Assembly: GCF_037031285.1 (NCBI RefSeq) | Contig: NZ_JAYEZO010000001.1 | Span: 1,674,001 to 1,738,000, forward strand | Length of the DNA: 64,000 nt | Direction of reading: 5' to 3' | DNA from: Halobellus sp. LT62 | GTDB lineage: Archaea; Halobacteriota; Halobacteria; Halobacteriales; Haloferacaceae | Shown here: positions 2,184-55,176 of the stretch, in pieces | How positions within the stretch are numbered: the stretch's first letter is position 1 | Layout of the letters: every line of letters starts with the position of its first letter | Notes under the pieces: generated by a model | What the model saw: the letters and a program-made list of their open reading frames with translations, nothing else | Told to the model about the DNA's origin: nothing | The model's database searches: none | Made by a program: the position numbers and the translations under genes

Positions 2184-3830
2184 TCAGGCGGGAGGCAGTT
2201 CAGAGGTCTCGATGACGAACCCTTTCGCGCCGCGATCACTGTATCCACCGTAGAGCACGGAATCGGTGACGACCACGTCAGTGCCGGATTCGTACAGTTT
2301 CATCGCTTGCCGTTTACTGTACGACCGCGCGGTTATCTCGTCGAAACGGGTCCGGTTGCCCTTGTTGATGAACGGGTGATGGGTAGACGAGTAGCTCCCG
2401 CCGACGAACAGGGTGTCGTCGGAGAGAATCTCCGCACAGCGCCGGTAGTGTGACCCGGGCTGGTCGACGGTCAGGTTCTCGAACCGAGCGTTCGCACGTT
2501 CGACCCGAATGGCCTCTCGCTGCACATTGCCGGGTGCGTTCCCGGAAATCGACACCTCCTTCACAAGCACCATCGAGTCATCGGGGGCGTTTCGCCCCTG
2601 CAGGTAGATCGCGAAGTTCGATCCCCCGATCTCAATGGTGGAATCGAGAATGTTCAGGCTGCCGGCATCGGGCGTGGTCTGGATACCGCGGGCGCATCCG
2701 TTGCCGTCGTCGTTCAGGACGATCTCACAGTTCTGGACGGTCGCCGTCTCCACGTTGTTGAGGACCCGGATGGCATTCTCTGCGGGGCCGGTCACCTCGA
2801 CCGTAGTGTTCTCGACGGTGAGCTCTGCGCCGTCGTCGAGGCGGATACCGCGTTGGCTGATCCCCGGGACCAGGTCGTCGATGACGACTGTAGCGTCGCG
2901 GACACTGCTCCCGTGGCCCTTGAGACGGATCGAGGAGACGGTGCTGTTCCTGTACGTGCCGCCCTCGACGCGGACGGTGCCTTTCGCACCCGAAACGTAC
3001 AGCCCGTTGTCGGGGAATCGACCGAGTTCGCAGTCGACGATTCGGAGCGTCCCCGCGCTGTTGGGGTCGATGAGCATCCCCGTCGGGCCGAGCGAGATGT
3101 CTCCGATGGTGTTCTCGGTGAACTCACCGCCGTCTGGCGCTTTGAATCGCTCGACGGTCCCTGTTCCGTTCGCGTTCATTATGCTGAAGAGTGCCGGACC
3201 GAACGTCCCCGTGTCGTGTTGTCCGTCGATGGTGACGTCGCGGACTTCGAGTCCGTCGGTGACGTACCCCTCTATGGCGCGGATCCCCGTCTGTGTCCCG
3301 GTGAAATCGAAGGTGAATCCCTCGAAGAGGAGGTTGCGTCCGGGGGCATAGATGACGCCGAGTCGGAAGAACCGTGCCGGACCGTCGAAATCGCCTTCTG
3401 TGATGACGTTTCCGTCGATCGCGTCGATCTGCCCGTGCGCGATCGTCGCGTTCGGCCCGTAGAATCCGAGGTTGTCGAACCCGGTCTTTCGGAGTTGGCG
3501 ATTCATTAGGTACCGGCCTTCCGGGAAGACGAGGAGCGTGTCGTCGCCCACGTTCGCCGAGAGCACGGTATCGATCGGGGTGTTTCCCGTCGGGTCGGCC
3601 CCCAGATCGACGACGTTGAGGACCGAGTCGAATCGGTCGAGATACGCCTGCGGAACGTCGACCGTCATCGTATCCGCTTGGGCAGTGGGAGCGGTCACAG
3701 ACATATACCCTCCCAGTGCGAGCGCTCCGGCCGCCCCGAGGAGATAGGATCGTCTACCAAGTTTTGAGCCATCGCAGGTGTCCGGTTCGCAGTCCTCCGG
3801 GGAACGAGTTTCTCGGTTCGTCTCTTTCAT
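2184..3830 (-). CDS. Tat-exported right-handed beta-helix protein
   Basis: A 548-aa secreted protein. The Tat signal is GRRSYLLGAAG (Arg26-Arg27), a hydrophobic stretch follows, and cleavage is likely after TAQA near residue 52. The mature part opens with a pectate-lyase-3-like motif, VVDLGADPTGNTPI, then LVFPEGRYLM. A long run of beta-helix coils follows with repeated N/D-G turns such as FPDNGLYVSG, VEGGTYRNS and VQNCEIVLND. Such folds bind or cleave acidic polysaccharides. No catalytic residues can be assigned here, so a glycan-binding or structural role is equally possible. It is a close paralogue of the proteins at 5886-7400 and 38201-39658. Confidence 0.85.
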   Translation of the reverse strand: MKETNRETRSPEDCEPDTCDGSKLGRRSYLLGAAGALALGGYMSVTAPTAQADTMTVDVPQAYLDRFDSVLNVVDLGADPTGNTPIDTVLSANVGDDTLLVFPEGRYLMNRQLRKTGFDNLGFYGPNATIAHGQIDAIDGNVITEGDFDGPARFFRLGVIYAPGRNLLFEGFTFDFTGTQTGIRAIEGYVTDGLEVRDVTIDGQHDTGTFGPALFSIMNANGTGTVERFKAPDGGEFTENTIGDISLGPTGMLIDPNSAGTLRIVDCELGRFPDNGLYVSGAKGTVRVEGGTYRNSTVSSIRLKGHGSSVRDATVVIDDLVPGISQRGIRLDDGAELTVENTTVEVTGPAENAIRVLNNVETATVQNCEIVLNDDGNGCARGIQTTPDAGSLNILDSTIEIGGSNFAIYLQGRNAPDDSMVLVKEVSISGNAPGNVQREAIRVERANARFENLTVDQPGSHYRRCAEILSDDTLFVGGSYSSTHHPFINKGNRTRFDEITARSYSKRQAMKLYESGTDVVVTDSVLYGGYSDRGAKGFVIETSELPPA

Positions 3831-5885: not shown

Positions 5886-7400
5886 CTAGAGGAACCGGTT
5901 GTCGCTGTACGTTACGTCGACATCACCGTACTCCCAGACACCGTTGTAGACTGCCGATTCGGAGATCGAAACGTCCGCGGATTCCTCGAGGACCTTCATA
6001 CCCTCGTCGCCATCGAGCGATCGAGTGGTGATGCCGTGGAACGTCGTCCCATCGGCCTCGTTGACAATCGGGATATGGGTCGCGTAGTAGTGACCCCAAG
6101 TAAACTGACAGCCATCACCGAGGATCTTGATCGCTCGCCGGTAATCGGTACCCGTCTGTTTGACGTCGAACCGATCGAATTCACCGTTGCCTCGTTCGAT
6201 TCGTACCGCGTGGCGACCGTGAGTGCCATCCCCGCTCCCGGTGATACTCGATTTCAGGACGGACACCCGATCTGCGTCCGGGCTACTTGGCCCTTTGACG
6301 TGGAATGCGCACCCGGGCGTATTAAATTCGATCTCGGTGTTTATCAGATCGATCTTCCCTGCCTCCGGTGAGACAGAGATTGCCTTCGTCGGAACGTGTC
6401 CGTCGACGGTGACGTTGGTGTTCTGAATCCGTGCCCACTCGACGTCGTTTAGGATACTGATTGCGTGTCCGTTGGGTTCTGAAAGACGGATTTCGACGTC
6501 TTCGATCCAGTTGTACGCCCCGCCATCGAGCCGAATGGCGCGCTGATTGCTATCGTCTTCTCGGTGGCTGTCGACGACGACTGTCGCGTCGTGGATCGAA
6601 CTGTAGTCGCCTGAGAGGCGGATACACGCGATATTACAGTTTTTAAAAATCCCGCCGTCCACGACGACTCGGCCGCTGTCTGTCGAGCAGTACAGTCCGT
6701 TGTCCGGCCATAGACCGACCTCGCAGTTTCGAACCCACAGTTTTCCCTCGTGAGAGGGTGAAACGATGATGCCCGTGGGGCCGACGTCGATATCACTTGG
6801 CGTGTACTTGGAGAACTCACCACCTTCCGGGATCCGGACGTTCTCGATTGAGCCAATCCCGGAGGGATCCGTGACATCGAACAGGAACGGTCCGAATTTC
6901 CCGCTGTCGTGCTGACCGACTACTTCGAGATCTTGGACCAACAGATCGTCGCTGACCTGTGCCTGTACTGCGCGCAAGCCAGTGTGGTCCGTGGTGAAGT
7001 CGAAATCCAACCCCTCGACGTAGAGGTCGTCTCCGGGCTGATTGTACGTTCCTAGCTTGAACAGCCACCGACCGTCGTATTCAGGATCAGGAACGATCGT
7101 TGCGTCATCGCCGCTGAGACCGAACCCCTGGAAACCGACGTGGCGGTACTCGTCGTCCATCAGGTACTGCCCTTCCGGGAAATACAGTATCGTGTCGTCA
7201 TCGCGCGGCAACTCCTCCAAGACGGGATTTATCGATTCTCCGCCCGTCGGGTCGGCTCCGTACTTGACGACGTTCAACCAGTCTTTATCCGCAGAGGCCG
7301 TCCCTGCGAAGGAGGCGGCTGCGAGCACCCCTCCCAGTCCTCGAAGAACCCCTCGGCGTGTGACGATCCGGTCGCTTCCATCTCCGCGATGTTCCGACAT
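5886..7400 (-). CDS. Tat-exported right-handed beta-helix protein
   Basis: A 504-aa secreted protein and paralogue of the one at 2184-3830. The Tat signal is TRRGVLRGLGG (Arg15-Arg16), with likely cleavage after TASA near residue 37. The mature protein starts NVVKYGADPTGGESI, then LYFPEGQYLMDD, and continues through about 400 residues of beta-helix coils (CEVGLWPDNGLYCS, GGIFKNCNIACIRL). Pectate-lyase-like folds of this kind act on or bind polysaccharide, and the substrate here is unknown. A TATA-like TAAAAATA (minus strand, 7432-7439) lies 32-39 nt upstream of the start. Confidence 0.85.
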   Translation of the reverse strand: MSEHRGDGSDRIVTRRGVLRGLGGVLAAASFAGTASADKDWLNVVKYGADPTGGESINPVLEELPRDDDTILYFPEGQYLMDDEYRHVGFQGFGLSGDDATIVPDPEYDGRWLFKLGTYNQPGDDLYVEGLDFDFTTDHTGLRAVQAQVSDDLLVQDLEVVGQHDSGKFGPFLFDVTDPSGIGSIENVRIPEGGEFSKYTPSDIDVGPTGIIVSPSHEGKLWVRNCEVGLWPDNGLYCSTDSGRVVVDGGIFKNCNIACIRLSGDYSSIHDATVVVDSHREDDSNQRAIRLDGGAYNWIEDVEIRLSEPNGHAISILNDVEWARIQNTNVTVDGHVPTKAISVSPEAGKIDLINTEIEFNTPGCAFHVKGPSSPDADRVSVLKSSITGSGDGTHGRHAVRIERGNGEFDRFDVKQTGTDYRRAIKILGDGCQFTWGHYYATHIPIVNEADGTTFHGITTRSLDGDEGMKVLEESADVSISESAVYNGVWEYGDVDVTYSDNRFL

Positions 7401-7549: not shown

Positions 7550-8119
7550 TTATGTGACGTATTTAACCTTTCGGCGTGCCCACCGGATTCCCGGCATCCC
7601 GTCCATAACCCAGCGGACGGCGACGATGACGAAGATAGAGACGTATCCGAGCACTAATCCGACGTTTTCGGTGTGCATCATCTGAAGGAGGAACGTTCCG
7701 AAGTACTCGGTGAACCGCTCGAAGAACCCGAGATCGCTCTCGTACGGGGGCTGCGAGACGAGCGGCCAGAGGGCTCGAGCGACGTTCGGGCCGTTCGCGC
7801 GGAGGGCGAGCACGTCGGCGAACAGGTGGGACCCGTACCCCACGAGGACGGCGACGGCGACTCGCGTCTTACCGCGCGTCCACAGCACGGCCACTACTCC
7901 GAGCGCGATCGGTCCGGCAACGAACAGGGAGTGGGCCGGCCCGTACCCCGTGGCGACGAGCCCGAACGTCCACGAGAGCGGTTTGTCGACGAGATCGGGA
8001 AGTTGGGTCGCCACCGCGAGAGCGAGACCAGTTCCGTCTTCGATGGGCTGCTCCCAGACGAGAGCGTTCAGGGTCGAATACAGCACGTAGCCGAAGACGA
8101 GGTGCTCCCACGGCCACAT
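7550..8119 (-). CDS. YdjM/DUF457-type membrane protein (predicted metal-dependent hydrolase)
   Basis: A 189-aa membrane protein of the YdjM/LexA-controlled hydrolase family. It starts MWPWEHLVFGY and contains LPDLVDKPLSW, GYGPAHSLF and GYGSHLFADV, giving the conserved His/Asp set typical of the family. About four hydrophobic segments follow one another. The catalytic activity of this family is not well established. Its ATG overlaps by one base the stop codon of the upstream DUF1616 gene (TGATG), so the two are translationally coupled. The same two-gene pair recurs at 54179-55755. Confidence 0.8.
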   Translation of the reverse strand: MWPWEHLVFGYVLYSTLNALVWEQPIEDGTGLALAVATQLPDLVDKPLSWTFGLVATGYGPAHSLFVAGPIALGVVAVLWTRGKTRVAVAVLVGYGSHLFADVLALRANGPNVARALWPLVSQPPYESDLGFFERFTEYFGTFLLQMMHTENVGLVLGYVSIFVIVAVRWVMDGMPGIRWARRKVKYVT

Positions 8120-9195
8120 CAGGCGACCGTCCTCCTAGCCGACGACTGTCGCTGAAATTGCGTGGGGCCGTCACCGTCGACTGAAACGACGAGTTGGACG
8201 GTTCGGTAGGCGTTCTCTCGATCCACATCCTCGGGAGCCTCACCCTCGTAGACGTGGAAAACCAGTCTGAGTCCGTCGCCGGACATCGTCGGCTGCACCT
8301 CACGATCGAGATACGCCGTTTCTCCATCCTCGATCGTGTGTCGTGTCCGCGAGAGTTCGTCCTCATCCACCACTTGCGTTCCGTTCGCCGTCTGCTCTGT
8401 TCGCTGGAGTTCGGTGACGACAGTGTACGTCGTCGGTTCGTGCTCGTGGCTCTCCAGTGCGAGCGTGTACACCGTTGTCTCTCCTCGGGAGAGCTGCCTC
8501 GGGTAGTCGCTCGCGGTGTATCCGGTCCCGTTTTCTGTCACGAGGTACGCTTCGGTGAACTCGGCGTCGGGTCCCCGAGTCTCGACCATCGCGAACCCGA
8601 TGCTGCTGAGGAACACGAGGACACTCACGATAACCAGTATGTTAACCACGAAGGGGACCGGTGAACGCCGTACCGACGAAAGCGAGGAGCTCTGTCCTCC
8701 GCCGGACGACGATACGGTCCCGACGATTATCGAAAGCGCCGGGAGACCGGCACGGGCGTCCGAGGGAAGCGACGCGCGACGAGCGAAGGCGAGGGAGGTG
8801 AGGACGATCGTTACTACGAACACACCCAACCCCACGATAGCGGCGTCGAACCCGCGACCGAGCGCGTTCGTGAGCAGGGCGACGGCGGCGACGAGCGCTA
8901 AGCTTGCGGTGGCCGAGAGGACCAGTCGAACTGAGTACAGGATCCCGGCCGTGTGTCGCGCTGGACGGGTCAGCGACAGGTCGCGCCCGAGACGGTCTGC
9001 GTCCACCTCAGACCGTCTCTCCGGGAATATCACCGCCAACAGCGCGTACCCGGGGTATAGGACGATCAGCGGCACGACGAAGAGACTTCGGACGAGCGAT
9101 CCCTCGATGTCTAAGAGGATCACCGCAAGGGCGGCGATCGCCCCCGCGATGACGAGGAGTAAATCGAGTGTCCACCGGCGGTGAGACGACGTCAT
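8119..9195 (-). CDS. DUF1616 membrane protein with extracytoplasmic domain
   Basis: A 358-aa protein. The N-terminal half has four or five hydrophobic helices (LLLVIAGAIAALAVILLD, then LFVVPLIVLYPGYALLAVIF with the PGY signature). A further helix near residue 190 is followed by an exported beta domain of about 140 residues containing FTEAYLVTENGTGY and PTTYTVVTELQ. This matches DUF1616, a haloarchaeal and methanogen family of unknown function often found with glycosylation genes. It forms an operon with the downstream YdjM-type gene and has a paralogue at 54179-55174. Confidence 0.85.
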   Translation of the reverse strand: MTSSHRRWTLDLLLVIAGAIAALAVILLDIEGSLVRSLFVVPLIVLYPGYALLAVIFPERRSEVDADRLGRDLSLTRPARHTAGILYSVRLVLSATASLALVAAVALLTNALGRGFDAAIVGLGVFVVTIVLTSLAFARRASLPSDARAGLPALSIIVGTVSSSGGGQSSSLSSVRRSPVPFVVNILVIVSVLVFLSSIGFAMVETRGPDAEFTEAYLVTENGTGYTASDYPRQLSRGETTVYTLALESHEHEPTTYTVVTELQRTEQTANGTQVVDEDELSRTRHTIEDGETAYLDREVQPTMSGDGLRLVFHVYEGEAPEDVDRENAYRTVQLVVSVDGDGPTQFQRQSSARRTVA

Positions 9196-9497: not shown

Positions 9498-9626
9498 ATG
9501 CGCACCAAAACGAAAATTCTCGCGTCACTCGTCGCACTGTTCGTGCTCGTCATCGTTCCCCGGTTGGTCCGCGGAACGGCTCCATCGGACGAGGTGAGGA
9601 CGACTGTAGAGGCATCGTCCGTATGA
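9498..9626 (+). CDS. 42-aa single-span membrane peptide
   Basis: A short gene opening the acyltransferase/dehydrogenase operon. It encodes a basic N-terminus (MRTKTKI), one hydrophobic segment (LASLVALFVLVIVP) and a short tail ending SSV. Its stop overlaps the ATG of the following acyltransferase (ATGA at 9623-9626), the same coupling seen between the next two genes, which argues that it is translated. It could be a membrane tether or assembly partner for the sugar-modifying enzymes. I do not recognise a family. The basic N-terminus plus single span also resembles a signal anchor. Confidence 0.6.
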   Translation: MRTKTKILASLVALFVLVIVPRLVRGTAPSDEVRTTVEASSV

Positions 9627-10204
9627 ACACGTACGTCACAGGGACCGGCTGCGAGATCGATGAGGACGTCACGATCGGCTACCCGGCGGGAGACGATCCC
9701 GGGAAGGCGGTCATCGGCGACGACGCCCGCATCCGCTCGGGGACGATCGTGTACAGCGACGTAGATATTGGGGATAGGTTCGCCACCGGCCACAACGCGC
9801 TCGTTCGAGAAAACACTCGAATCGGCGACGACGTCGTCGTCGGGACCGATACGATCGTCGACGGAACGTCCGTCGTCGGCTCTAACGTTAGCCTCCAAAG
9901 CCGCGTCTACGTGCCCACGAACACGTACGTGGGGAGCGACGTGTTCGTGGGCCCCGGCGCAGTCCTGACAAACGATCCGTACCCGGTCAGGCGGGACGTC
10001 GACCTGTCGGGACCGACGCTCGAAGACGGCGTCTCGATCGGAGGGAACGCGACGATTCTCCCCGACGTGACCGTCGGTGAGGGAGCGTTCGTCGCCGCCG
10101 GTGCCGTCGTCACCGACGACGTCCCAGCCCGTACCCTCGCAGTCGGCGCACCGGCAGAACATCGCCCGCTACCGGCCGCACTTAGCGGAGAGAACACGAT
10201 ATGA
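9623..10204 (+). CDS. left-handed beta-helix (hexapeptide) acyltransferase
   Basis: A 193-aa hexapeptide-repeat acyltransferase, expected to move an acetyl group from acetyl-CoA to an amino- or hydroxyl-sugar. Hexapeptide repeats of the form I-G-D-D run through the whole protein, with the insertion loop VLTNDPYPVRRD and a final GAFVAAGAVVTDDVPART/VGAPA block typical of the WbbJ/WbpD-like group. It overlaps the 42-aa gene upstream and the UDP-sugar dehydrogenase downstream by 4 nt each. In this setting it is a candidate N-acetyltransferase for a 3-amino-uronic acid nucleotide, but the substrate is inferred. Confidence 0.85.
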   Translation: MNTYVTGTGCEIDEDVTIGYPAGDDPGKAVIGDDARIRSGTIVYSDVDIGDRFATGHNALVRENTRIGDDVVVGTDTIVDGTSVVGSNVSLQSRVYVPTNTYVGSDVFVGPGAVLTNDPYPVRRDVDLSGPTLEDGVSIGGNATILPDVTVGEGAFVAAGAVVTDDVPARTLAVGAPAEHRPLPAALSGENTI

Positions 10205-11589
10205 GCTCGAAATCCACCATCAGGGCGGTCTACGGATCCACGCGACCTGAAGACGAACAGATCGACGCACTGACGTCGGGGCAGGTACCTGTCGGCGTCT
10301 ATGGTCTCGGCAAGATGGGGCTTCCCCTCGCCTCGGTCTACGCCGAAACCACGGGTAACGTGGTCGGCGCGGACGTCGATCCTCACGTCGTCCGGGAGGT
10401 CAACGCCGGTCGCAGTCACGTCGTCGGCGAGCCAGGACTGGAGGACCTCGTCGAGGAACAGGTCGAACGAGGGTCGCTCGTCGCCGACACCGATCCCGGT
10501 GACGTCGCAGCGGAAACGAACGTGCACGTGGTCATCGTCCCGACGCTCATCGACGACCGCGGCCGCCCCGACCTCTCGATAATCGAGGCGGTGACGGAGA
10601 ACATCGCACGGGGGCTCGACGAGGGCGACCTCGTCGTCTTCGAGTCGACGCTCCCCCCGCGAACCTGCGCCGACGAACTCCTGCCGAAACTCGAAGCCGA
10701 GAGCGGGCTCTCCCTCGGAGAGTTCGGGCTCGCGTTCTGCCCCGAGCGGACCTCCTCTGGACGGGCGTTGAAAGACATCCGGGGCGCGTATCCGAAGGTC
10801 GTCGGCGGCGCGGACGCCGAAAGCACACGCGCCGCGGCGCTCGTCTACGAGCAGATCACCTCGAACGACGTCATAACCGTTTCTGACACCACGACTGCGG
10901 AGGCGGTCAAGGTCTTCGAGGGCATCTACCGCGATGTCAACATCGCGCTCGCGAACGAACTCGCGAACCACGCCGAGGAGTTCGAAATCGACGTCACGGA
11001 GGCGATCGACGTCGCCAACACGCAGCCGTTCTGTGACGTCCACGCGCCCGGCGCGGGCGTCGGCGGGCATTGCATCCCGTACTATCCGAAGTTCCTCATC
11101 GAGCGATTCGATGCGGAGTCGTCGCTTATGGAGACGGCCCGCGAGATCAACGACGAGATGCCGCACGTCACCGCGCAGGCGACGCTCGACCGACTGGAGG
11201 GGCAGGGCGTCGATCCCGCGGATGCGACCGTCCTCGTCCTCGGATTGGCCTACCGGGCCGGCGTCGAAGAGATCCGAAAGACGCCGGCGCTGCCGGTCGT
11301 CGAACACCTCGACGACGCCGGTGCCGACGTCATCGCCACCGACCCTGTCCTCGACGACACCGCCGCGTTCGAGAACGCTGGCGCGACGGTGGTCGACGAT
11401 CCGACCGGCGACGAACTGTCTGTCGACGCCGTCGTTCTCGTGACCGCCCACGACTCGTTCGACCGCCTCGACGTTCCGGCGCTCGGCGAGGGCGAACGCC
11501 CGGTCGTGTTCGTCGACGGCCGCCAAGCAGCGACGAAGTACCGAGACGACGACGATGTTGTCTACGAGGGGATCGGCCTCTATGACTGA
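10201..11589 (+). CDS. nucleotide-sugar (UDP-GlcNAc/ManNAc-type) 6-dehydrogenase
   Basis: A 462-aa NAD-dependent dehydrogenase that should oxidise C6 of a UDP-hexose or UDP-HexNAc to the uronic acid in two steps. It has an N-terminal Rossmann motif (VYGLGKMGLPLA, about residues 33-44), the central domain, the catalytic Cys291 in GGHCIPYYP, and the C-terminal domain with VLGLAYRAGVEEIRKTP. The IPYYP in place of the usual IPVDP marks a subfamily distinct from the next gene. It carries about 30 extra N-terminal residues. It overlaps its upstream and downstream neighbours, so it sits inside the operon. Confidence 0.9.
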   Translation: MSSKSTIRAVYGSTRPEDEQIDALTSGQVPVGVYGLGKMGLPLASVYAETTGNVVGADVDPHVVREVNAGRSHVVGEPGLEDLVEEQVERGSLVADTDPGDVAAETNVHVVIVPTLIDDRGRPDLSIIEAVTENIARGLDEGDLVVFESTLPPRTCADELLPKLEAESGLSLGEFGLAFCPERTSSGRALKDIRGAYPKVVGGADAESTRAAALVYEQITSNDVITVSDTTTAEAVKVFEGIYRDVNIALANELANHAEEFEIDVTEAIDVANTQPFCDVHAPGAGVGGHCIPYYPKFLIERFDAESSLMETAREINDEMPHVTAQATLDRLEGQGVDPADATVLVLGLAYRAGVEEIRKTPALPVVEHLDDAGADVIATDPVLDDTAAFENAGATVVDDPTGDELSVDAVVLVTAHDSFDRLDVPALGEGERPVVFVDGRQAATKYRDDDDVVYEGIGLYD

Positions 11590-12868
11590 GACAGTCTGCG
11601 TCGTGGGGCTCGGCTACGTCGGCCTCCCGCTGGCGGTCGAGTTCGATCGGGCGGGGAAGGAAGTAATCGGATACGACGTCGACGCAGTGAAAATCGACGA
11701 ACTCGCGTCGGGGACCGATCCGACCGGCGACCTCACCGACGACCGCGTCGCGGCTTCCGATGTGTTCTTCACGGCGGAACCCTCGCACATCTCTGATGCG
11801 GACTTCGTCATCGTGACGGTTCCGACACCGGTCGACAGTATGGAAAACCCCGACCTCCGATTCGTCGAATCGGCGGCCGAGACCATCGGGGAGTACATCG
11901 TGCCGGGAGTTACTGTCGTGCTCGAATCCACCGTCTACCCCGGTGCGACCGAGTCCGTCCTCGTTCCCGAACTCGAATCTGCGTCCGGTTACACCGTCGG
12001 CGAAGACATCTTCGTCGGCTACTCGCCGGAACGCGCCTCGCCGGGGGATGCCGGACGAAACGTCCGGGACGTGGTCAAGGTGATCGGCGCAAACTCCGAG
12101 TCAGTCCGCGATGACCTCGCAAAGCTCTACGGAAGCATCGTCGACGCCGGTATCCATCGAGCGCCCGACATCGAGACCGCAGAGGCGTCGAAGGTCATCG
12201 AAAACGTCCAGCGGGACATGAACATCGCCCTCGTCAACGAACTGGCCATCGCGTGCGACCATATGGGCCTGACGACGGAAGACGTGCTCGAAGCTGCCGG
12301 GACGAAGTGGAACTTCCACGACGGCTACTCACCGGGATTCGTCGGCGGACACTGCATTCCGGTCGACCCGTTCTACCTCACGTACCGCGCCAAGCGTGAG
12401 GGGTTCTCGCCGAAGCTCGTGTTACAGGCCCGCGAGATCAACGAGTACGTCCCCGTCCACGCAGCGCGAAAGGCTGTCAAGACGATCAACGAGTCCGGCC
12501 GCGTCCTGAAGGACACGCGGCTCCTGATCCTCGGGCTGGCCTACAAACCCGGGGTCGGAGACATCCGCAGCTCCAACGTCGGGACGATGATAGACGAACT
12601 CGCCGAGTACGACGTCGAGTGCGTGGGATACGATCCGCACGCCGCCCCCTCCGAGTCACGGGCGGAATTCGACATCGAGGTGGTCGAAGCGGTCGACTTC
12701 GAGGCGTACGACGGCGTTGTCGTCTCGACGGCACACGAGTCCTTTGGCGACTACGACCTCGAATCGATGGCCGCCTCCCTCGGACCGGACCCGGTAATGG
12801 TCGACGTGGCCGACGTGTTCGACGCTGACACGGCGACTGACCTGAGCTTCCACTACGCGCAGTTGTGA
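11582..12868 (+). CDS. UDP-N-acetyl-mannosamine/glucosamine dehydrogenase-like (WecC/WbpA family)
   Basis: A 428-aa NAD-dependent UDP-sugar 6-dehydrogenase. The Rossmann motif is VVGLGYVGLPLAVEF at the N-terminus, the nucleotide-sugar region has VGYSPERASPGD, and the catalytic Cys258 lies in GGHCIPVDPFYL. The C-terminal domain has ILGLAYKPGVGDIRSS. I chose the ATG at 11582, which overlaps the previous stop by 8 nt and starts exactly at the family N-terminus. The downstream DUF354 gene overlaps or abuts its stop. The product would be a UDP-HexNAc uronate or UDP-glucuronate. Confidence 0.92.
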   Translation: MTETVCVVGLGYVGLPLAVEFDRAGKEVIGYDVDAVKIDELASGTDPTGDLTDDRVAASDVFFTAEPSHISDADFVIVTVPTPVDSMENPDLRFVESAAETIGEYIVPGVTVVLESTVYPGATESVLVPELESASGYTVGEDIFVGYSPERASPGDAGRNVRDVVKVIGANSESVRDDLAKLYGSIVDAGIHRAPDIETAEASKVIENVQRDMNIALVNELAIACDHMGLTTEDVLEAAGTKWNFHDGYSPGFVGGHCIPVDPFYLTYRAKREGFSPKLVLQAREINEYVPVHAARKAVKTINESGRVLKDTRLLILGLAYKPGVGDIRSSNVGTMIDELAEYDVECVGYDPHAAPSESRAEFDIEVVEAVDFEAYDGVVVSTAHESFGDYDLESMAASLGPDPVMVDVADVFDADTATDLSFHYAQL

Positions 12869-22540: not shown

Positions 22541-22840
22541 GAGCGTGTCGACGCCGGTGTGCAGGGCAACAGCGGCGGCTTCGCGTTCGGCCCCGCCGCC
22601 GTTCGCGTCGACCCCGGGACCACGGTCGTCTGGGAGTGGACCGGCGGCGTCGAACACAGCGTGGCGGCCGTCGACGAAAGTTACGCAAGTCCCGAACAGG
22701 GGAGGGGCACGTGGGGGCTCGTATTCGACGGAATCGGTATCAGCAAGTACGTCAGTTCCGCGGACGGGGCTGAGATGCGGGGTACGATCGCCGCCGGAGA
22801 TGTCTTCGGAAGCCCCCGCGCCCGCGACAAGCCCGCCTGA
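22541..22840 (+). pseudogene. halocyanin (blue copper protein) remnant
   Basis: The reading frame ERVDAGVQGNSGGF, then FGPAAVRVDPGTTVVWEW, then VEHSV matches the first half of a halocyanin copper-binding domain, including the first His ligand. After that the expected closing block with the Cys and second His (usually Y-x-C-x-P-H) is missing and reads KYVSSADGAEMRGTI. No signal peptide or start codon fits upstream: in-frame sequence before 22541 does not resemble the family, although GTG at 22559 could start a short frame. I read it as a decayed or truncated gene between the asparagine-synthase homologue and an SDR. Confidence 0.65.
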
Positions 22841-22928
22841 CACCGGTTGGACGGCCGCAGTTGCGTAACTAAACGCGACCACGTTAGCGTTGTCAACGCT
22901 TTTGTTCACGCCCGAACAGCAAACGGGT

Positions 22929-23726
22929 ATGGACCTCCGACTGGACGGCAACGCGGCGCTTGTGACCGCATCGAGCAGCGGCCTCGGGAAGGCCTCCGCA
23001 CGGGCGCTCGCCGCCGAAGGTGCGAACGTCGTACTCAACGGCAGGGGCGAAGAGCGTCTCGAAGCGGCCGTCGACGACGTCCGCGACGATGCGGTCGCCG
23101 GCGCGACCGTCGTCGGACACGCCGCGGATCTGACTGACGCCGACGCGGTGGAGTCGCTCGTCGACCGTGCCGTCGCGGAGTTCGGCGGCCTCGACCACCT
23201 CGTCACGTCCGCGGGCGGCCCGCCCGCGAAACCCTTCCTCGAAACGACCGACGAGGAGTGGTACGCGGCGTTCGACCAACTCGTGATGAGCGTCGTACGG
23301 ACCGTCAGAGCCGCCGAACCGCACCTGCGCGACTCCGATCACGGGACCCTCGTCACCATCGCGTCGGTGAGCGTCAAGGAGGCGGTCGACGGTCTCGTTC
23401 TCTCGAACGCCGTGCGAGCGGGCGTTGTCGGGCTGGAGAAGACGCTCTCGAAGGAACTCGCACCGGAGGTCCGCGCGAACGCGGTCCTTCCGGGGACGCA
23501 CGAGACCCCGCGCGTGGAAGAGCTCGTCGAGCACGGCGTACAGGACGGGACGTACGACTCCTACGAGTCGGGGATCGAAGCGTGGGCCGGAGAGATCCCG
23601 GTCGGGCGGATCGGCGATCCGATGGAGTTGGGTCGGACGGTCGCGTTCCTCTCCTCGCCGCAGTCGGCGTACCTCTCGGGCGCGGCGATCCCGATCGACG
23701 GTGGCGAGAGCGCGTCGAACCTATGA
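22929..23726 (+). CDS. short-chain dehydrogenase/reductase family protein
   Basis: A 265-aa SDR with the N-terminal cofactor motif LVTASSSGLGKASARALA and an NAD(P)-type fold (VNAG-like position reads LVTSAGGPPAKP). The catalytic region reads TIASVSVKEAVDG, then LVLSNAVRAGVVGLEKTLSKEL, so the usual Tyr-x-x-x-Lys is not visible at the expected place. The C-terminus PQSAYLSGAAIPIDGG is standard. I chose the ATG at 22929, where family homology begins, over the one at 22890. Substrate unknown. It is followed 16 nt later by trkH. Confidence 0.85.
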   Translation: MDLRLDGNAALVTASSSGLGKASARALAAEGANVVLNGRGEERLEAAVDDVRDDAVAGATVVGHAADLTDADAVESLVDRAVAEFGGLDHLVTSAGGPPAKPFLETTDEEWYAAFDQLVMSVVRTVRAAEPHLRDSDHGTLVTIASVSVKEAVDGLVLSNAVRAGVVGLEKTLSKELAPEVRANAVLPGTHETPRVEELVEHGVQDGTYDSYESGIEAWAGEIPVGRIGDPMELGRTVAFLSSPQSAYLSGAAIPIDGGESASNL

Positions 23727-23742
23727 GCCGGCGCGCACCGCA

Positions 23743-25239
23743 ATGACGCTCCGCGTCGACTGGCGCGTCAGCGTCGGTCTCGTGGGGACGATCCTCAAGT
23801 GGCTGTGGGTCCCACTCTCGCTCCCTCTTGCGCTCGCGCTCTACGACGGGACGACGGTTCTCCCGTTTCTCGTCCCGATGGTCGGTACCGCCGCGGTGGG
23901 TGCCGGTCTCGAACGACTGCCGGAGACGCGCGATCTACGGGCCAGAGAGGCGTTTCTGATGGTCGCGCTGACGTGGCTGAGCATCGCGCTCGTCGGGACG
24001 ATACCCTTCCTGATCGCCGGGAACGGCGTCCTCGCAGAGCCGGTCAACGCGCTCTTCGAGAGTATGAGCGGGATCACGACGACCGGCGCGACCGTGATCG
24101 TCGACTTCGAGGTGCACTCGCGGGCAATCCACCTGTGGCGCTCGACACTGCAGTGGCTCGGCGGCCTCGGGATCCTCGTGCTCGCAACCGCACTGCTCTC
24201 ACAGCTCTCCGTCGGTGGCGCACAGCTGATGGAGACGGAGACACAGACGCGGGATCTCAACAAACTGACGCCGCGGATCTCCGAGACGGCCGCGCTCCTC
24301 TGGAAGCTCTACGTCGGGCTCACGGGGCTGATGGTCGCCGTCCTCGTCGGCCTTCGCATCGTCGGACTCGCCCCGGAGATGACGGTTTTCGACGCCGTTG
24401 CACACGCGTTCACCGCGGTATCGACGAGCGGGTTCTCGCCTCGCAGCGACAGCATCGCGGCGTTCTCTCCGGCCGTCCAGTGGGCCGTCATCCCGTTTAT
24501 GGCTCTCGGTGCGACGAGCTTCATCCTGATGTACTTCGCTCTGCAGGGAGACTTCTCACGGCTGCGGCGGAGCGACGAGTTTCGGTTCTACCTCACGATC
24601 CTGGGGGTGTTTACCGCCGGGATCGCCGCGGTACTCGCCACCAGCGCGTCCCCTCGATTCACCGTCGAGGAGACGGTCCGTCACTCGCTGTTCCAAGTCG
24701 TCTCGATCGTGACGACGACGGGCTATGCGAGCGTCGACTTCGACCTCTGGTCGCCCGCGGCGAAGCACCTGCTCTTCGTCGCGATGTTCACCGGCGGGAT
24801 GGCCGGTAGCACGACCTGCTCGATCAAGGCGCTCCGCTGGCTCGTCGTGCTGAAGGCGTTTCGCCGCGACCTCTTCGTCGCGACGACGCCGAGCGCGATC
24901 CGCCCCGTCAGGCTGAGCGGACGGGTCGTCGACGAGGAGACGGTCCGCGACATCTACGCATACACGCTCGTAAGCTTGGTCTTCTTCATCATCGGGACCG
25001 TGTTCGTCGTCATCGATGCCTCCCGCGCCCGGGTCGCTGTCACCGAGTTCGAGGCGATGAGCGCCGTCTCGGCGACGTTTTTCAACGTTGGACCCGCGTT
25101 CGGCATCGCCGGACCGCTCGCGAGTTACGAGTCGTTCCCGGCGTCGACGAAGCTCGTGATGGTCTTTCTGATGTGGATCGGTCGGATCGAGATCATCCCG
25201 GTGCTCGTCCTTCTGACGCCCTCGTTCTGGCGCTCGTAG
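23743..25239 (+). CDS. trkH: TrkH-type potassium uptake membrane subunit
   Basis: A 498-aa channel-like subunit for K+ uptake, working with a cytoplasmic TrkA nucleotide-binding protein not present here. The four selectivity-loop regions can be seen: SGITTTGATV, FTAVSTSGFSP, VSIVTTTGYASVDFD and SATFFNVGPAFG. About ten or more membrane helices surround them, and MFTGGMAGSTTCSIKALR is the conserved block after loop 3. The ATG at 23743 follows the SDR stop by 16 nt. High internal K+ is the osmotic strategy of haloarchaea, so this is a core function. Confidence 0.93.
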   Translation: MTLRVDWRVSVGLVGTILKWLWVPLSLPLALALYDGTTVLPFLVPMVGTAAVGAGLERLPETRDLRAREAFLMVALTWLSIALVGTIPFLIAGNGVLAEPVNALFESMSGITTTGATVIVDFEVHSRAIHLWRSTLQWLGGLGILVLATALLSQLSVGGAQLMETETQTRDLNKLTPRISETAALLWKLYVGLTGLMVAVLVGLRIVGLAPEMTVFDAVAHAFTAVSTSGFSPRSDSIAAFSPAVQWAVIPFMALGATSFILMYFALQGDFSRLRRSDEFRFYLTILGVFTAGIAAVLATSASPRFTVEETVRHSLFQVVSIVTTTGYASVDFDLWSPAAKHLLFVAMFTGGMAGSTTCSIKALRWLVVLKAFRRDLFVATTPSAIRPVRLSGRVVDEETVRDIYAYTLVSLVFFIIGTVFVVIDASRARVAVTEFEAMSAVSATFFNVGPAFGIAGPLASYESFPASTKLVMVFLMWIGRIEIIPVLVLLTPSFWRS

Positions 25240-25246
25240 GCGCGCT

Positions 25247-26491
25247 GTGAGGCGCTTTGGCACACTCTCGCGGCCACGAATCGGAACTCACGTAACCGTC
25301 CATCTCTCAGCCGAGCGTGTGACGGCCTCGACGACTTCGACGGCGACGACGCGTTACGCGCGACGGATGCTCGTGACCGTCTCGCTCGGGTGGGCGCTGC
25401 TGCAGACCGGCCGGTATCTCCTCTCGCCGCTCCTCCCGACGATCATCGTCGATCTCGGCATCACCGAAGCGACCGCGGGCATCGCGCTCGCGGTGTTTCA
25501 GGGGTCGTACGCGCTCGTCCAGTATCCCAGTGGCGAGTATTCGGACCGCTGGAACCGGACGACGCTGATCGTTCCCGGACTGATCGTGATCGCCGGGGGT
25601 TTCGCCCTGTTCGGGCTGACGACCGGACTGGCGATGTTCCTCGTCGCCGCGACGGTCACGGGGATCGGAAAGGGACTGTTCGCGATTCCCTCGCGAGCAC
25701 TGCTCTCGGATCTGTTCACGACGAACCGGGGTCGAGCGCTCGGAATCTACGCCGCCGGGACCGACCTTGGCGGCCTCGTTTCGTCCGGGATCGCGGTTCT
25801 GGCGCTCACTTACGCGACGTGGCGGACGCCGTTTTTCCCCGTCGCTATCGCGCTGGCGCTGCTCACGGTCGCCTACGCGTCGATGACGCGGGAACCGTAC
25901 GACGTCGGGAGCTCCTCGCTCGAGCTCCGAAGCACGGTGGGTCGACTCGTCCAGAGCGCCCGACAGCGCGAGACGATCCTCGCGTTCTCGCTGTTTTACT
26001 TTATGGTCGGCGGCTTCATCAACTTCGCACCGACGTACCTCGCGCAGTCGAAGGGGTTCTCCGAGAGCCTCGCGGGGCTGACGTTCGCCATCGTGTTCGC
26101 CGTCGGGTTCGCGGTGAAACCCGCCGCGGGAACGCTCGGAGATCGGTTCTCTCGGCGGGGGATCGCCGTGAGCGGTCTCCTCTTGGCCGCGGTTTCGCTC
26201 GTCGCACTCGTCGTGGCCGCATCGAACGTCGCGATCTGGGTCACGGTCGCGCTCCTCGCGCTGGGGTACAAGACGGGCTTCCCGCTGGCCGACGCGATCA
26301 TCCTCGACGGCGCGCCGTCGGACGGGATGGGCGCGGATCTCGGGGCCGCGCGGGCGATCTTCCTGAGCGCGAACGCGCTCGGGCCCGCCTACGTCGGGAT
26401 CGTCGCCACGTACGGCAGCTACGACGCCGCCTTCGGCGGGTTCGTCGTCTGTCTCGTGGTCGCGGCGGCACTGTTGTTCAGAAGCCGGTAG
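25247..26491 (+). CDS. MFS transporter
   Basis: A major facilitator superfamily carrier with twelve predicted helices (414 aa from the GTG at 25247). The loop 2-3 motif appears as GEYSDRWNRTTL, and the second half repeats it as GTLGDRFSRRGI. The first helix begins near LVTVSLGWALLQTG, so the GTG at 25319 or ATG at 25367 may be the true start; the extra N-terminal residues are polar and unlike the family. Substrate not predictable. It starts 7 nt after trkH and converges with another MFS gene, to which it is only distantly related. Confidence 0.85.
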   Translation: MRRFGTLSRPRIGTHVTVHLSAERVTASTTSTATTRYARRMLVTVSLGWALLQTGRYLLSPLLPTIIVDLGITEATAGIALAVFQGSYALVQYPSGEYSDRWNRTTLIVPGLIVIAGGFALFGLTTGLAMFLVAATVTGIGKGLFAIPSRALLSDLFTTNRGRALGIYAAGTDLGGLVSSGIAVLALTYATWRTPFFPVAIALALLTVAYASMTREPYDVGSSSLELRSTVGRLVQSARQRETILAFSLFYFMVGGFINFAPTYLAQSKGFSESLAGLTFAIVFAVGFAVKPAAGTLGDRFSRRGIAVSGLLLAAVSLVALVVAASNVAIWVTVALLALGYKTGFPLADAIILDGAPSDGMGADLGAARAIFLSANALGPAYVGIVATYGSYDAAFGGFVVCLVVAAALLFRSR

Positions 26492-26498
26492 ACGATCC

Positions 26499-27737
26499 TC
26501 ACAGCGACGCCGGTTCCGGAGCCCGCCACGCGAGGACGAGTCCCACGACGGCGAGCAGACCGACGAGGAGGAACGCGACGTCGAACCCCGCGTTATCGAC
26601 GACCGCGCCGCCGGCGATGGGCGAGAGAAACGCGCCCGCCAGCCCGACGCTCGTCTGAAACGCGACCGCGGTGGCCGCGACGTGGGGGTCGACGACCTCG
26701 CGGACGTACGTGAACGAGAGCCCGAGGGTCAACTGGATCGCAAAGCCCGACAGGAGCAGCGCGCCGACTAACAGCCAGATCGATCCGAGATGCGTGAACG
26801 CGAAAAGCAGCGGCGCGGCGACGGCGAACGATCCGACGAGCACCGGTTGTCGCCGACCGCCGAACACCCGATCCGAGAGGAGGCCGCTGCTGATCCGCGA
26901 GAGGACGCCCACGGCCGGGAAGATCGCCACCACCGCACCGCTCACCGCGAGCGAGAGCCCTATGTCATCGGTGAGATACGACGATCCCCAGCTGTTGATG
27001 AACAGATAGAGCGCGTAGCTGAGAAACCCGAGCGTGCCGACGAGCCAGACGGTCCGGTTGCGGAGGACGGCCCCGAAGTCGGCCGCTGAAGGCGCGTCCC
27101 TGCGAGCAGCGCCGAGCCCGCGACTCGCCGGCCAGAAGACGAGCAGTCCGACGAGCGCGACGCCGGTGAACGCCACAAAGATCGCTGGCCAGCCGAATCG
27201 GGCCGCGATGAGCGGGCCGGTCCCCTGTCCGATCGCGAAGCCGACGGGGCCGCTCGCTGTGAAAATCCCGACGGCGGTCGCGCGGTGCTCGGCGCTCACC
27301 GCGCGGCTCACGATGTCGATTCCGGCGTTCCAGACGACGACGTAGGCGACGCCGCCGACCGCCCGCGAGGCGATCACCGACCAGTAGTTCCCGTTTCGTC
27401 CGGCGATCCACCCCCAGACACCGGCGACGAACAGCGCCAGTACGGCCAACGCCATCGCTCCCCGCGTGTCAGTCCGATCCAGTAGCGCACCCGCGGGGAG
27501 GCTCGCGACGACCGCGGTTCCGAACATAACGCTGACGAGGAGGCCGGCGACCGTCGAACTGACGTTCAGCGACTCCTTGATGAGCGGCGTCACGCTGGCC
27601 GGAACGATCTCGTAGGCGGCCAATCCGGTGGACATCAGGCTCGCACCGGCGACGAGGCCGATCGTCCGCCAGTCGGTCGCGTCTCCGCGAGCCGACTCAC
27701 CCCCGTCGAGTCGAGCGCTTTCGGATCCCGTCGTCAT
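26499..27737 (-). CDS. MFS transporter
   Basis: A 412-aa MFS carrier with twelve predicted helices. The conserved loop 2-3 motif reads AGALLDRTDTRGAMAL and the second-half copy SGLLSDRVFGGRRQP. I placed the start at the ATG at 27737; upstream in-frame residues are Arg-rich and unlike a transporter N-terminus. The substrate is unknown. It converges with the preceding MFS gene with a 7-nt gap and is divergent from the dihydrofolate reductase gene. Confidence 0.88.
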   Translation of the reverse strand: MTTGSESARLDGGESARGDATDWRTIGLVAGASLMSTGLAAYEIVPASVTPLIKESLNVSSTVAGLLVSVMFGTAVVASLPAGALLDRTDTRGAMALAVLALFVAGVWGWIAGRNGNYWSVIASRAVGGVAYVVVWNAGIDIVSRAVSAEHRATAVGIFTASGPVGFAIGQGTGPLIAARFGWPAIFVAFTGVALVGLLVFWPASRGLGAARRDAPSAADFGAVLRNRTVWLVGTLGFLSYALYLFINSWGSSYLTDDIGLSLAVSGAVVAIFPAVGVLSRISSGLLSDRVFGGRRQPVLVGSFAVAAPLLFAFTHLGSIWLLVGALLLSGFAIQLTLGLSFTYVREVVDPHVAATAVAFQTSVGLAGAFLSPIAGGAVVDNAGFDVAFLLVGLLAVVGLVLAWRAPEPASL

Positions 27738-27853
27738 CAATACAGGAACGTGTCTGCTACCGTCTCTAGAAGCCACCGATCGGCCACTAATGGGACGCCG
27801 CCGCGCGCTCGACGGGGCGGCAGTTTTGTATCGGCGAGGCGTAGCCCACACTG

Positions 27854-28336
27854 ATGGAACTCGTCTCAGTCGCCGCAGTCGCCGAGAACGGCGTCATCGG
27901 ACGCGACGGCGATCTACCCTGGGAGAGCATCCCCGCAGACAAGCGTCAGTACCGCCGACGCGTCGCTGACGCGCCCGTCGTCCTCGGCCGGCGAACGTTC
28001 GAGTCGATGCGCGAGGATCTCCCGGGCAGCCACCAGATTGTCCTCAGTCGGACCGAACGCGCTTTCGACGTCGACACCGCGTTTCACGCGAGCAGCGTGG
28101 ACGAGGCGGTCGCTATCGCCGAGTCGCTCGGTGCCGACACGGTGTACGTGCTCGGCGGCGCTGCGATCTACGAACTCTTCCAACCGCACGTCGATCGGAT
28201 GGCGTTGAGTCGAATTCCGGGGGCGTACGACGGCGACGTGCGATACCCCGAGTGGGAGGAGTCGGAGTGGCGGTTGGCGTTGTCGGAGCAGTGGGACGGG
28301 TTCACGCTCGAAGAGTGGGTGCGACGAATCCGATGA
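27854..28336 (+). CDS. folA: dihydrofolate reductase
   Basis: A 160-aa DHFR that reduces dihydrofolate with NADPH in one-carbon metabolism. Family motifs are visible: [20 protein letters not shown] at the N-terminus with the substrate-binding [22 protein letters not shown], and [13 protein letters not shown] for NADPH binding. The length is typical and the protein is acidic as in halophilic DHFRs. It stands alone, divergent from the MFS gene. Confidence 0.95.
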
Positions 28337-28503
28337 AATAGCGAGCAGTCGGGTTGCACTGAGCGAGCCGTATCCTCGGCGTACGGCCACATCTCGATCC
28401 CGCGTCGGTTGTCCCGAACTCCCGCCGTGTTCCGACGCGGCTCTCTGTCAGGTCACGGGGGCGTTGGCCGCTCATTAGGATATAAACCTTCGTCGTCCTT
28501 TCG

Positions 28504-28576
28504 ATCGCCCCCGGCCCCGTCAGCTGCGTCGCGTCATTCGTCCAATCGCCCCCGGCCCAGTCATCTGCGCCGCGCC
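28504..28576. repeat. imperfect 32-bp direct repeat before msrA
   Basis: Two copies, 28504-28535 and 28545-28576, begin ATCGCCCCCGGCCC and agree at about 28 of 32 positions, with a 41-bp period. They lie 50-120 nt before the msrA start. No coding frame explains them. Confidence 0.6.
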
Positions 28577-28625
28577 GATCGCGCGCCCGCGTCAGGTACA
28601 TACGAATCGACGTCCAATACCGGGT

Positions 28626-29162
28626 ATGACACTCGAAACGGCCACGTTCGGCGGCGGATGCTTCTGGTGTACCGAGGCGGCGATGAAGGAGCTGGCGGGC
28701 GTCGAGTCTGTCACGTCGGGGTACGCGGGGGGCGAGACGGCGGACCCGACGTATCGGGAGGTCTGTTCCGGCTCGACGGGCCACGCGGAGGTCGTGCAGG
28801 TCGAGTTCGATCCCGACGAGATCACGTACGCCGACCTGCTGGAGGTGTTCTTCGCGACTCACGACCCCACGCAGCTCAACCGACAGGGCCCGGACGTCGG
28901 GTCGCAGTACCGCTCGATCGTCCTCTACCACGACGACGAGCAGCACCGACAGGCCGAAGCCTACGTCGAGGCGCTCGATTCGGAGTACGCCGACGAGGTA
29001 GTCACCGAGATCGAACCCCTCGAACGCTTCTGGCCCGCCGAGGAGTACCACCAAGACTACTTCGAGAAGAACCCCTCGGACGCCTACTGCCGGATGCACG
29101 CCGCGCCGAAGGTCGAGAAAGTGCGCGAGAAGTTCGAAAAGCTGGTTCGGACGACCGCGTAA
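28626..29162 (+). CDS. msrA: peptide-methionine (S)-S-oxide reductase
   Basis: A 178-aa MsrA that repairs oxidised methionine. The active-site motif TFGGGCFWCTEA places the catalytic Cys12 with Cys15 two residues on, and VTSGYAGG, YREVCSGSTGHAEVVQV and FWPAEEYHQDYFEKNP complete the family pattern. Full length. It ends 38 nt before the convergent proA stop. Confidence 0.96.
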   Translation: MTLETATFGGGCFWCTEAAMKELAGVESVTSGYAGGETADPTYREVCSGSTGHAEVVQVEFDPDEITYADLLEVFFATHDPTQLNRQGPDVGSQYRSIVLYHDDEQHRQAEAYVEALDSEYADEVVTEIEPLERFWPAEEYHQDYFEKNPSDAYCRMHAAPKVEKVREKFEKLVRTTA

Positions 29163-29199
29163 TTCGGACGACTGCGTAAGGCCGCGTTCTCGCGCGTCG

Positions 29200-30555
29200 C
29201 TACGAGCGGTTCCCGGCGAGTCGCCCCGGGATCCACTCGCCGTCGAAGTCCTCGTGAAGATACGGCTTCGCGTTCTCGCCGGCGTAGGTCGCGACCAACT
29301 GCCCGTCGCCTTCGAGGTGGTACTTGTACGTCGTCAGTCCTTCGAGACCGACGGGGCCGCGGGCGTGCGTCTTGCCGGTGCTGATTCCAACCTCCGCGCC
29401 GAGGCCAAAGCGGTACCCGTCCGCGAACCGCGTCGAGGCGTTGTGGAAGACGCTGGCGGCGTCGATGCGTCGCATAAACTGCTCTGCGTGCTCCGGCGTC
29501 TCGGTCACGATCGACTCGGTGTGCTTCGAGCCGTGCGCGTTGACATGATCGATTGCGTCCTCGAGCGAGTCGACGACCTTGATCGCGAGGATCAGATCGC
29601 CGTACTCGGTGTCCCAGTCGGCGTCGCTCGCGGCGTTCATCTCGGTGATCTCGCGCGCCCGATCGTCACCGCGGAGTTCGACGTCGGCCTCGCGGTAGCG
29701 ATCTGCGAGTCCGGGCAGGAAGTCGGCGGCGACCGACTCGTGGACGAGCAGCGTCTCGACGGCGTTACACACCGCGGGGTACTGCACCTTCGCGTCGAAG
29801 GCGACGTCCGCGGCCATCTCGAGGTCGGCGTCGTCGTCGACGTAGACGTGACAGATCCCCTCGGTGTGGCCGAGGACCGGGATCTTCGTGTTGTCCTCGA
29901 CGTAGCTGACGAATTCGGAGCTTCCGCGGGGCATCAGCAGGTCGACGGCGTCGTCGCGTTCGAGCAGCGTCTCGACGTCCTCGCGGGCCTCGATGAGCTG
30001 GGCCCAGCCGTCGGGGACGTCAGCGACGGCGTCGACGATGACGTCGTAGAGGATCCGGTTCGAGTGTGCGGCCTCGCTGCCGCCTTTCAGGATCACGCTG
30101 TTCCCGGACTTGAGGCTGAGCGCGGCGATCTGGACCAGCGCGTCGGGTCGGGACTCGAAGACGGTCCCGAGCACGCCGATCGGGACCGCAAGCTTGTACA
30201 GTTCGAGGTCCTCATCTAGCCGACGGGCCGCGAGCGTTCGACCCAGCGGGTCCTCCTGCTCTGCGACGCTGCGGACCATCTCGGCGATGCTTTCGAGCTT
30301 CGACTCCGAGAGCTTCAGCCGGTCGACGAACGCCTGGGTGTACTCGCCCGCTTCGAGGAGCTCCTCGCCCGCCTCGACGTCCTTCGCGTTGGCTTCGAGG
30401 ATTGCGTCGCTGTGTGCCTCGATAGCGTCTGCGATGGCGTACAGCGCGTCGTTCCGCGTCGATTCCGAGAGGTTCGCGAGTTCAAGCGCCGCGGACTGTG
30501 CTTCCGTCACTTTCGTTTCGGCCGATTTCTCGGTCGTGGTGGTGGGTTCGGTCAT
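29200..30555 (-). CDS. proA: gamma-glutamyl phosphate reductase
   Basis: A 451-aa enzyme that reduces gamma-glutamyl phosphate to glutamate semialdehyde with NADPH in proline synthesis. The aldehyde-dehydrogenase fold shows IGVLGTVFESRPDALVQ, GNSVILKGGSEAAHSN, LLMPRGSSEFV, and the active-site Cys in VQYPAVCNAVETLLVH. The C-terminus has FGLGAEVGISTGKTHARGPVGL. It lies immediately downstream of proB (about 47 nt), giving the order proC-proB-proA on the minus strand. Confidence 0.96.
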   Translation of the reverse strand: MTEPTTTTEKSAETKVTEAQSAALELANLSESTRNDALYAIADAIEAHSDAILEANAKDVEAGEELLEAGEYTQAFVDRLKLSESKLESIAEMVRSVAEQEDPLGRTLAARRLDEDLELYKLAVPIGVLGTVFESRPDALVQIAALSLKSGNSVILKGGSEAAHSNRILYDVIVDAVADVPDGWAQLIEAREDVETLLERDDAVDLLMPRGSSEFVSYVEDNTKIPVLGHTEGICHVYVDDDADLEMAADVAFDAKVQYPAVCNAVETLLVHESVAADFLPGLADRYREADVELRGDDRAREITEMNAASDADWDTEYGDLILAIKVVDSLEDAIDHVNAHGSKHTESIVTETPEHAEQFMRRIDAASVFHNASTRFADGYRFGLGAEVGISTGKTHARGPVGLEGLTTYKYHLEGDGQLVATYAGENAKPYLHEDFDGEWIPGRLAGNRS

Positions 30556-30602
30556 CGTTGAGTTGGGTCAGTAGTTGTCGGGGAGCAGTGTGTATCGGTC
30601 GT

Positions 30603-33236: not shown

Positions 33237-33241
33237 CTTAC

Positions 33242-55174: not shown

Positions 55175-55176
55175 CG

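Follow-up and report, generated by a model that had tools for sequence, protein, structure and literature searches.

A recurrent DUF1616-YdjM gene pair in haloarchaeal glycan islands: a possible outward-facing membrane hydrolase with an N-glycosylated partner

Why should a DUF1616 gene and a YdjM-type gene lie side by side twice in one region of a haloarchaeal genome, each time among genes for sugar metabolism? The window analysed here, a stretch of 64,000 nucleotides from Halobellus sp. LT62, carries one such pair at 7550-9195 and another at 54179-55755, on the opposite strand and in the same order. A first-pass annotation had drawn attention to this recurrence, and coordinates, strand relation and Pfam matches all agree with it. 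To our knowledge, the release, polymerisation or anchoring of haloarchaeal surface polysaccharides outside the membrane is largely unknown. The reading that we prefer, with a probability of about 0.4, is that the genes form a recurrent module acting at the outer face of the membrane, where an outward-facing membrane hydrolase and an N-glycosylated partner would make or finish surface polysaccharide. The four genes are the following:

8119-9195, minus strand: DUF1616 copy 1, 358 amino acids (PF07760, E 1e-61, 209.3 bits); predicted N-terminal membrane helices and C-terminal exported Ig-like domain with two N-glycosylation sequons, from the PF07760 match, the model of the copy 2 homologue and the sequons.
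7550-8119, minus strand: YdjM-type copy 1, putative membrane metal hydrolase, 189 amino acids (PF04307, E 4.3e-12, 46.3 bits).
54179-55174, plus strand: DUF1616 copy 2, 331 amino acids (PF07760, E 1.8e-70, 238 bits); AlphaFold2 model; three sequons in the exported domain.
55177-55755, plus strand: YdjM-type copy 2, putative membrane metal hydrolase, 192 amino acids (PF04307, E 2.1e-14, 53.8 bits).

All four proteins score above the curated Pfam cut-offs (31.6 bits for DUF1616, PF07760; 29 bits for YdjM, PF04307). The one-base overlap claimed for copy 1 is seen in the junction TGATG, where the DUF1616 stop meets the YdjM start; in copy 2 there is no overlap, stop and start being separated by 2 bases. 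The copies are colinear, as had been proposed, with near-full-length alignments of both partners (29% identity and E 8e-33 for DUF1616, 37% and E 4e-32 for the YdjM-type protein). Because identity is this low, and because the window copies sit in different subclades on the DUF1616 and YdjM trees alike, a recent tandem duplication of the pair is ruled out; as judged from their sequences, the two pairs are old paralogues. The genome holds two DUF1616 genes, both within the window, and seven YdjM matches, six of them above the cut-off.

Both families are common in the class, DUF1616 being found in 160 of 194 genomes and a relative of the YdjM partner in 166. Among the 148 matches listed, own genome excluded, at least 23 haloarchaeal YdjM places lie within 300 bp of a DUF1616 gene, for which the chance expectation is, roughly, well under 1, and at least 21 of these 23 show DUF1616 followed by YdjM on one strand; the pair is conserved outside this locus, as its description as a module had supposed. 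Gene order was read from a sample of 100 regions chosen around matches (20 because the genes were adjacent), 8 related loci and the window, with genes called by our own scripts and a few starts uncertain (L040, L147). A YdjM-type gene stands directly 3' of DUF1616 for 33 of the 80 DUF1616 genes, a ratio that is no frequency, since regions were picked around matches and 20 of them for adjacency. The paired loci represent at least 16 genera and nine families, the window's genus not counted; one of them (L110) is doubtful, with a 118-base gap and a YdjM protein on a long outlying branch. Coupling is as tight as had been suggested: the order is conserved, in 19 of 33 pairs the intergenic gap falls between -10 and +10 bases, and named plasmid pairs have a 1-base overlap (Halomicrococcus, Halorussus, Haladaptatus) or a 2-base gap (Halobaculum). 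In the plasmid records the pair lies inside glycan clusters or, in one record, beside a GT2 gene. Each gene is also found without the other, no partner occurring within a few genes for 35 of 79 YdjM-type and 35 of 80 DUF1616 genes in the sampled loci. The pair, recurrent and widespread among haloarchaea, is therefore not obligate. No fusion of the two families was present among these 80 DUF1616 and 79 YdjM-type genes. Outside Halobacteria, YdjM was directly downstream of DUF1616 in none of 20 sampled loci, and a short YdjM match just upstream in one.

Two further arrangements may be recorded here. Four non-haloarchaeal genomes of the phylum, apparently of the class Methanosarcinia, have a YdjM match in the vicinity of DUF1616, at a distance of roughly 0.25-0.93 kb and differently oriented (G213:C2, G333:C1, G424:C24, G408:C1). 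At another locus (L085, genes 7 and 8) DUF1616 is split into open reading frames of 179 and 150 amino acids, followed by an intact YdjM-type gene; this is either a broken gene or a sequencing error.

The genes that flank the two pairs in the window are these:

5886-7400, minus strand: secreted pectate-lyase-like/beta-helix protein (PF12708, E 4.1e-05, under the cut-off), immediately 3' of copy 1; start uncertain (7400 from the longest open reading frame, 7328 from the coding score).
9623-10204, plus strand: hexapeptide acetyltransferase (Pfam), divergent from copy 1.
10201-11589, plus strand: UDP-sugar dehydrogenase-type gene (Pfam), in the 9623-12868 block divergent from copy 1.
11582-12868, plus strand: UDP-sugar dehydrogenase-type gene of the same cluster as 10201-11589, in the same divergent block.
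53102-53383, minus strand: ArsR/HVO_A0261-type HTH protein, adjoining the DUF7344 gene.
53390-53947, minus strand: DUF7344 winged-helix protein with C-terminal hydrophobic segments (PF24035, E 3.5e-29), divergent from copy 2.
55999-57084, plus strand: DegT/DnrJ/EryC1 sugar aminotransferase (PF01041, E 2.7e-121), immediately 3' of copy 2.
57081-58025, plus strand: Gfo/Idh/MocA sugar dehydrogenase (PF01408, E 9.7e-29), in the same gene run as DegT, after copy 2.

We take the acetyltransferase, UDP-sugar dehydrogenase, DegT and Gfo/Idh set near the pairs to resemble a route to diacetamido-uronic acids. The DUF7344 protein is a possible regulator, and in 14 of the 33 paired loci DUF1616 is closely preceded by a regulator-like gene (cluster 3 or 22). 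A beta-helix protein of the same cluster as 5886-7400 lies directly 3' of YdjM in 8 of 33 paired loci versus none of the 35 YdjM-only loci. Some other features of the window deserve mention. It contains three secreted beta-helix/pectate-lyase-like paralogues of one cluster (2184-3668, 5886-7400 and 38456-39658), possibly polysaccharide lyases or epimerases. Between its two sugar-gene arms, none of the 14 genes called at 22559-37346 (clusters 219-232) clusters with other glycan loci, and the arms look as if they flank unrelated DNA. At 58080-63945 lie genes for a PKD protein, a GNAT-domain (Acetyltransf_6) protein and a phosphodiesterase-family protein, in an order retained 3' of the pair in two other loci (L040, L041).

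The glycan context attributed to the pair is borne out by counts over seven clusters (GT2, GT4, Gfo/Idh, UDP-sugar dehydrogenase, DUF354, DegT aminotransferase and hexapeptide acetyltransferase) within 8 genes. At least two sugar or glycosyltransferase clusters are present in 26 of 33 paired loci, versus 11 of 35 DUF1616-only loci, and in 16 of 35 YdjM-only loci. Four of the latter (L043, L044, L045, L047) share the order acetyltransferase, DegT, YdjM, an unnamed gene, GT2 and an ATP-grasp-cluster gene; since this order is retained, the YdjM-type protein keeps its sugar company without DUF1616. One could envision, though we consider it somewhat unlikely, that the YdjM-type protein alone is the glycan-pathway enzyme and DUF1616 a general envelope scaffold, co-transcribed in some lineages, the two sharing a pathway and forming no complex. 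Its position between the DegT aminotransferase and the glycosyltransferase run in those four loci speaks for such an arrangement, as do loci in which it precedes hexapeptide, DegT, Gfo/Idh and UDP-dehydrogenase genes without DUF1616 (L090, L099, L100), and the case of Halobellus inordinatus (G095), whose YdjM-type gene follows regulators, alone, with no DUF1616 there. The 1-base overlaps and short gaps described above, together with the conserved order, argue against it, and the only DUF1616 gene of H. inordinatus is still in the same region, on the same contig and some 13 kb away from its YdjM-type gene. Neither gene strictly needs the other next door, because many glycan operons contain a YdjM-type gene and no DUF1616, and most DUF1616 genes have no YdjM beside them; that the paired genes share a pathway is well supported.

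The partners also show signs of a common history. Their distance matrices correlate in 30 of the 33 pairs, the other three having been dropped as too short (r 0.73, none of 5000 permutations as high), with the shared species history, from which such a correlation can stem, still included in r. The nearest neighbour is concordant between partners in 9 of 30 pairs, and for copy 1 the nearest relatives of the DUF1616 protein and of its partner do not match. On trees from which short proteins were omitted (5 of 80 DUF1616, 6 of 79 YdjM-type), the paired label takes 9 changes versus 24.5 when shuffled for DUF1616 (0 of 500 as low) and 10 versus 23.7 for YdjM. Among 70 genomes of the window's own family, 17 are without DUF1616, 16 without a YdjM relative and 11 without both (Fisher p 1.5e-5, with genomes counted as independent despite phylogeny).

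DUF1616 itself is not new to the literature. Makarova, Galperin and Koonin (2015) and Makarova et al. (2019), in passages of PMC6393860 and PMC5898192, describe it (HVO_2173, arCOG02884) as membrane helices plus an extracellular Ig-like domain and predict for it a place in a secretion or membrane-remodelling complex with a MoxR AAA ATPase and a vWA protein; the 2019 list of top uncharacterised archaeal targets includes arCOG02884, present in 293 of 524 genomes (PMC6393860). The likeness to the window proteins lies in the same DUF1616 family and the same layout of membrane helices and extracellular Ig-like domain. The context differs: it is MoxR/vWA in the published case, and in the window pairs it consists of the YdjM-type partner and sugar genes; the passages of PMC6393860 and PMC5898192 that concern us name no YdjM-type partner. 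In the part of the matching open-licence full-text literature that we consulted, we found no description of a DUF1616-YdjM pairing. The pair could nonetheless belong to the predicted arCOG02884 complex of MoxR ATPase, vWA and DUF58 proteins, and lie in glycan islands because islands collect surface genes. This reading, which appears improbable to us, draws on the published prediction for HVO_2173 and on a Halorussus limi plasmid pair with MoxR, DUF58 and DUF4129 genes nearby. At least two DUF58/MoxR-associated clusters (DUF58 and DUF4129 named by Pfam, MoxR from sequence and plasmid annotation) occur within 8 genes in 14 of 35 DUF1616-only loci, but in just 1 of 33 paired loci; the figure for YdjM-only loci is 0 of 35, and none of the five clusters is present among the 51 genes called in the window. 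The best-scoring DUF1616 proteins belong to this separate DUF58/MoxR-type context, while on the DUF1616 tree the paired proteins are mostly outside the MoxR-type clade. The DUF1616-only loci thus fit the published MoxR/vWA context and the paired loci do not.

Another point of comparison is offered by the exopolysaccharide clusters of Haloferax mediterranei and Haloarcula hispanica, which are likewise haloarchaeal polysaccharide clusters with amino/uronic sugars, according to part of PMC5467301. An H. mediterranei plasmid has a DUF1616 gene among sugar genes, in a locus that we do not equate with the published cluster; for the locus tag of that cluster nothing was found in the open-licence full-text literature. 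Unlike in the window pairs, no YdjM-type gene is listed beside this DUF1616.

What the YdjM-type partner might do is suggested by its conserved residues. Sixteen positions do not vary across the 58 aligned proteins, whether these are paired or not: P3, W4, H6, Y11, D42, D45, K46, H63, S64, H98, D102, W120, P121, W171, D174 and P177. The His/Asp residues that the first-pass annotation took for ligands are contained in this set and form in copy 2 (H6, D42, D45, H63, H98, D102) an H/D/D/H/HxxxD pattern. The AlphaFold2 model of copy 2, a helical membrane bundle with a mean pLDDT of 92.8, places H6, D42/D45, H63 and H98/D102 near the same face, as judged by helix ends. The loops opposite this face are positive (2.26 and 2.59 K+R versus 1.21 and 0.60 D+E per protein), which does not hold for the loops on the side of the motif; under the positive-inside rule the motif should therefore be outside the cell, and the conserved His/Asp site is predicted to face outwards. 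Relatives are annotated as 'metal-dependent hydrolase' in RefSeq-derived plasmid records, and a sequence search for solved structures gave none. Both window partners fall within the YdjM/DUF457 family (PF04307) by their scores. The haloarchaeal set has the additional residues P3, W4, K46, W120, P121, W171, D174 and P177, invariant in the haloarchaeal alignment, which may set it apart from that family at large, and it differs in its glycan-island context. The YdjM of E. coli is annotated as SOS-induced.

A weak link to zinc-dependent phospholipase C (PF00882) emerges from two sides. No second Pfam family other than PF00882 matches more than 2 of the 58 YdjM-type members; PF00882 matches 9 of them, weakly (best E 0.013), and a search with its profile gave no match to either window copy. 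The top three VIA rows for the YdjM-type model are zinc-phospholipase-C-fold entries, with Z of 4.8 (rmsd 4.7 over 118 residues), 4.6 and 4.4, in a range (Z under 5) that is noise for helical proteins, and a Foldseek search stayed empty at E <= 0.001. An archaeal membrane protein of 136 residues (L196:1510-1917) matches PF00882 at 31.9 bits (cut-off 26.8) and PF04307 at 31.1 bits (cut-off 29) over the same residues, which suggests that the two families are related. From the other side, several proteins found with PF00882 match the YdjM-type profile, the best with E 8.4e-13 in a tiny database; a profile comparison with soluble archaeal PF00882 relatives aligned just 13 columns, around GxxxHxxxD. 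Such likeness as there is comprises the GxxxHxxxD segment, the double-matching protein and the best VIA rows, whereas the YdjM-type protein is integral to the membrane and much shorter. This weak, two-sided link makes kinship a lead and not membership. A role for the YdjM-type protein in envelope stress, as a phospholipase or lipid phosphatase acting on membrane lipids with the sugar genes as mere neighbours, seems very unlikely. This weak kinship, the further YdjM-family genes elsewhere in the genome and the SOS annotation in E. coli would favour such a role; against it stand the sugar-pathway genes, which are common in paired loci and turn up again, in varying company, across many genera.

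The exported beta domain claimed for DUF1616 is supported by model, sequence and a glycosylated relative. In the AlphaFold2 model of copy 2 (mean pLDDT 88.4), the membrane helices give way at residue 201 to a beta sandwich that resembles Ig/FnIII/CARDB-type domains (Z 10.7 for the best VIA row; Foldseek E 1.8e-6); such matches are many, and they give the domain a fold name and no function. A sequence search for solved structures yielded one non-significant row (E 0.48). Sequons are in excess in the beta part, with 154 observed versus 52.7 expected in 67 proteins; in the 31 paired DUF1616 proteins the figures are 53 and 21.6. HVO_2173 of Haloferax volcanii is an AglB-dependent N-glycoprotein, as reported in part of PMC8241124; by our comparison its peptide is most like an unpaired DUF1616. 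The sequon excess and the N-glycosylation of HVO_2173 make it very likely that the beta domain is extracellular. As a separate observation, the column of residue 237 of the 54179-55174 protein (alignment A2) keeps its Asn in 66 of 67 DUF1616 proteins and falls in the segment of a non-canonical N-glycosite peptide of HVO_2173 reported in the same part of PMC8241124.

In the module that we favour, the YdjM-type protein would be an integral-membrane hydrolase whose His/Asp site faces outwards and probably binds zinc, like members of the zinc-dependent phospholipase C superfamily; the orientation, which we read from loop charges, the zinc and the superfamily kinship are all inferred. Its target might be a phosphodiester bond, or one of similar kind, in a glycan that is linked to a lipid or anchored in the membrane, and the outcome could be release of the glycan, recycling of its carrier or re-anchoring. 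DUF1616 would be the membrane-bound, N-glycosylated partner, in which a helical domain is joined to an exported Ig/CARDB-like domain that may hold the glycan or the hydrolase or keep either in position, and the paired proteins would be a side branch of their family recruited together with the YdjM-type hydrolase. One might go so far as to imagine an unrecognised archaeal polysaccharide-finishing machine, in which an outward membrane relative of zinc phospholipase C, with a glycosylated Ig-domain scaffold, cuts or transfers a lipid-carried amino/uronic-acid polysaccharide at the surface, but we regard this full picture as speculative and rather improbable. On this view one branch of arCOG02884 has a putative enzyme as its partner and a setting among sugar-pathway genes, which brings its role within reach of deleting the two genes in a haloarchaeon amenable to genetics.
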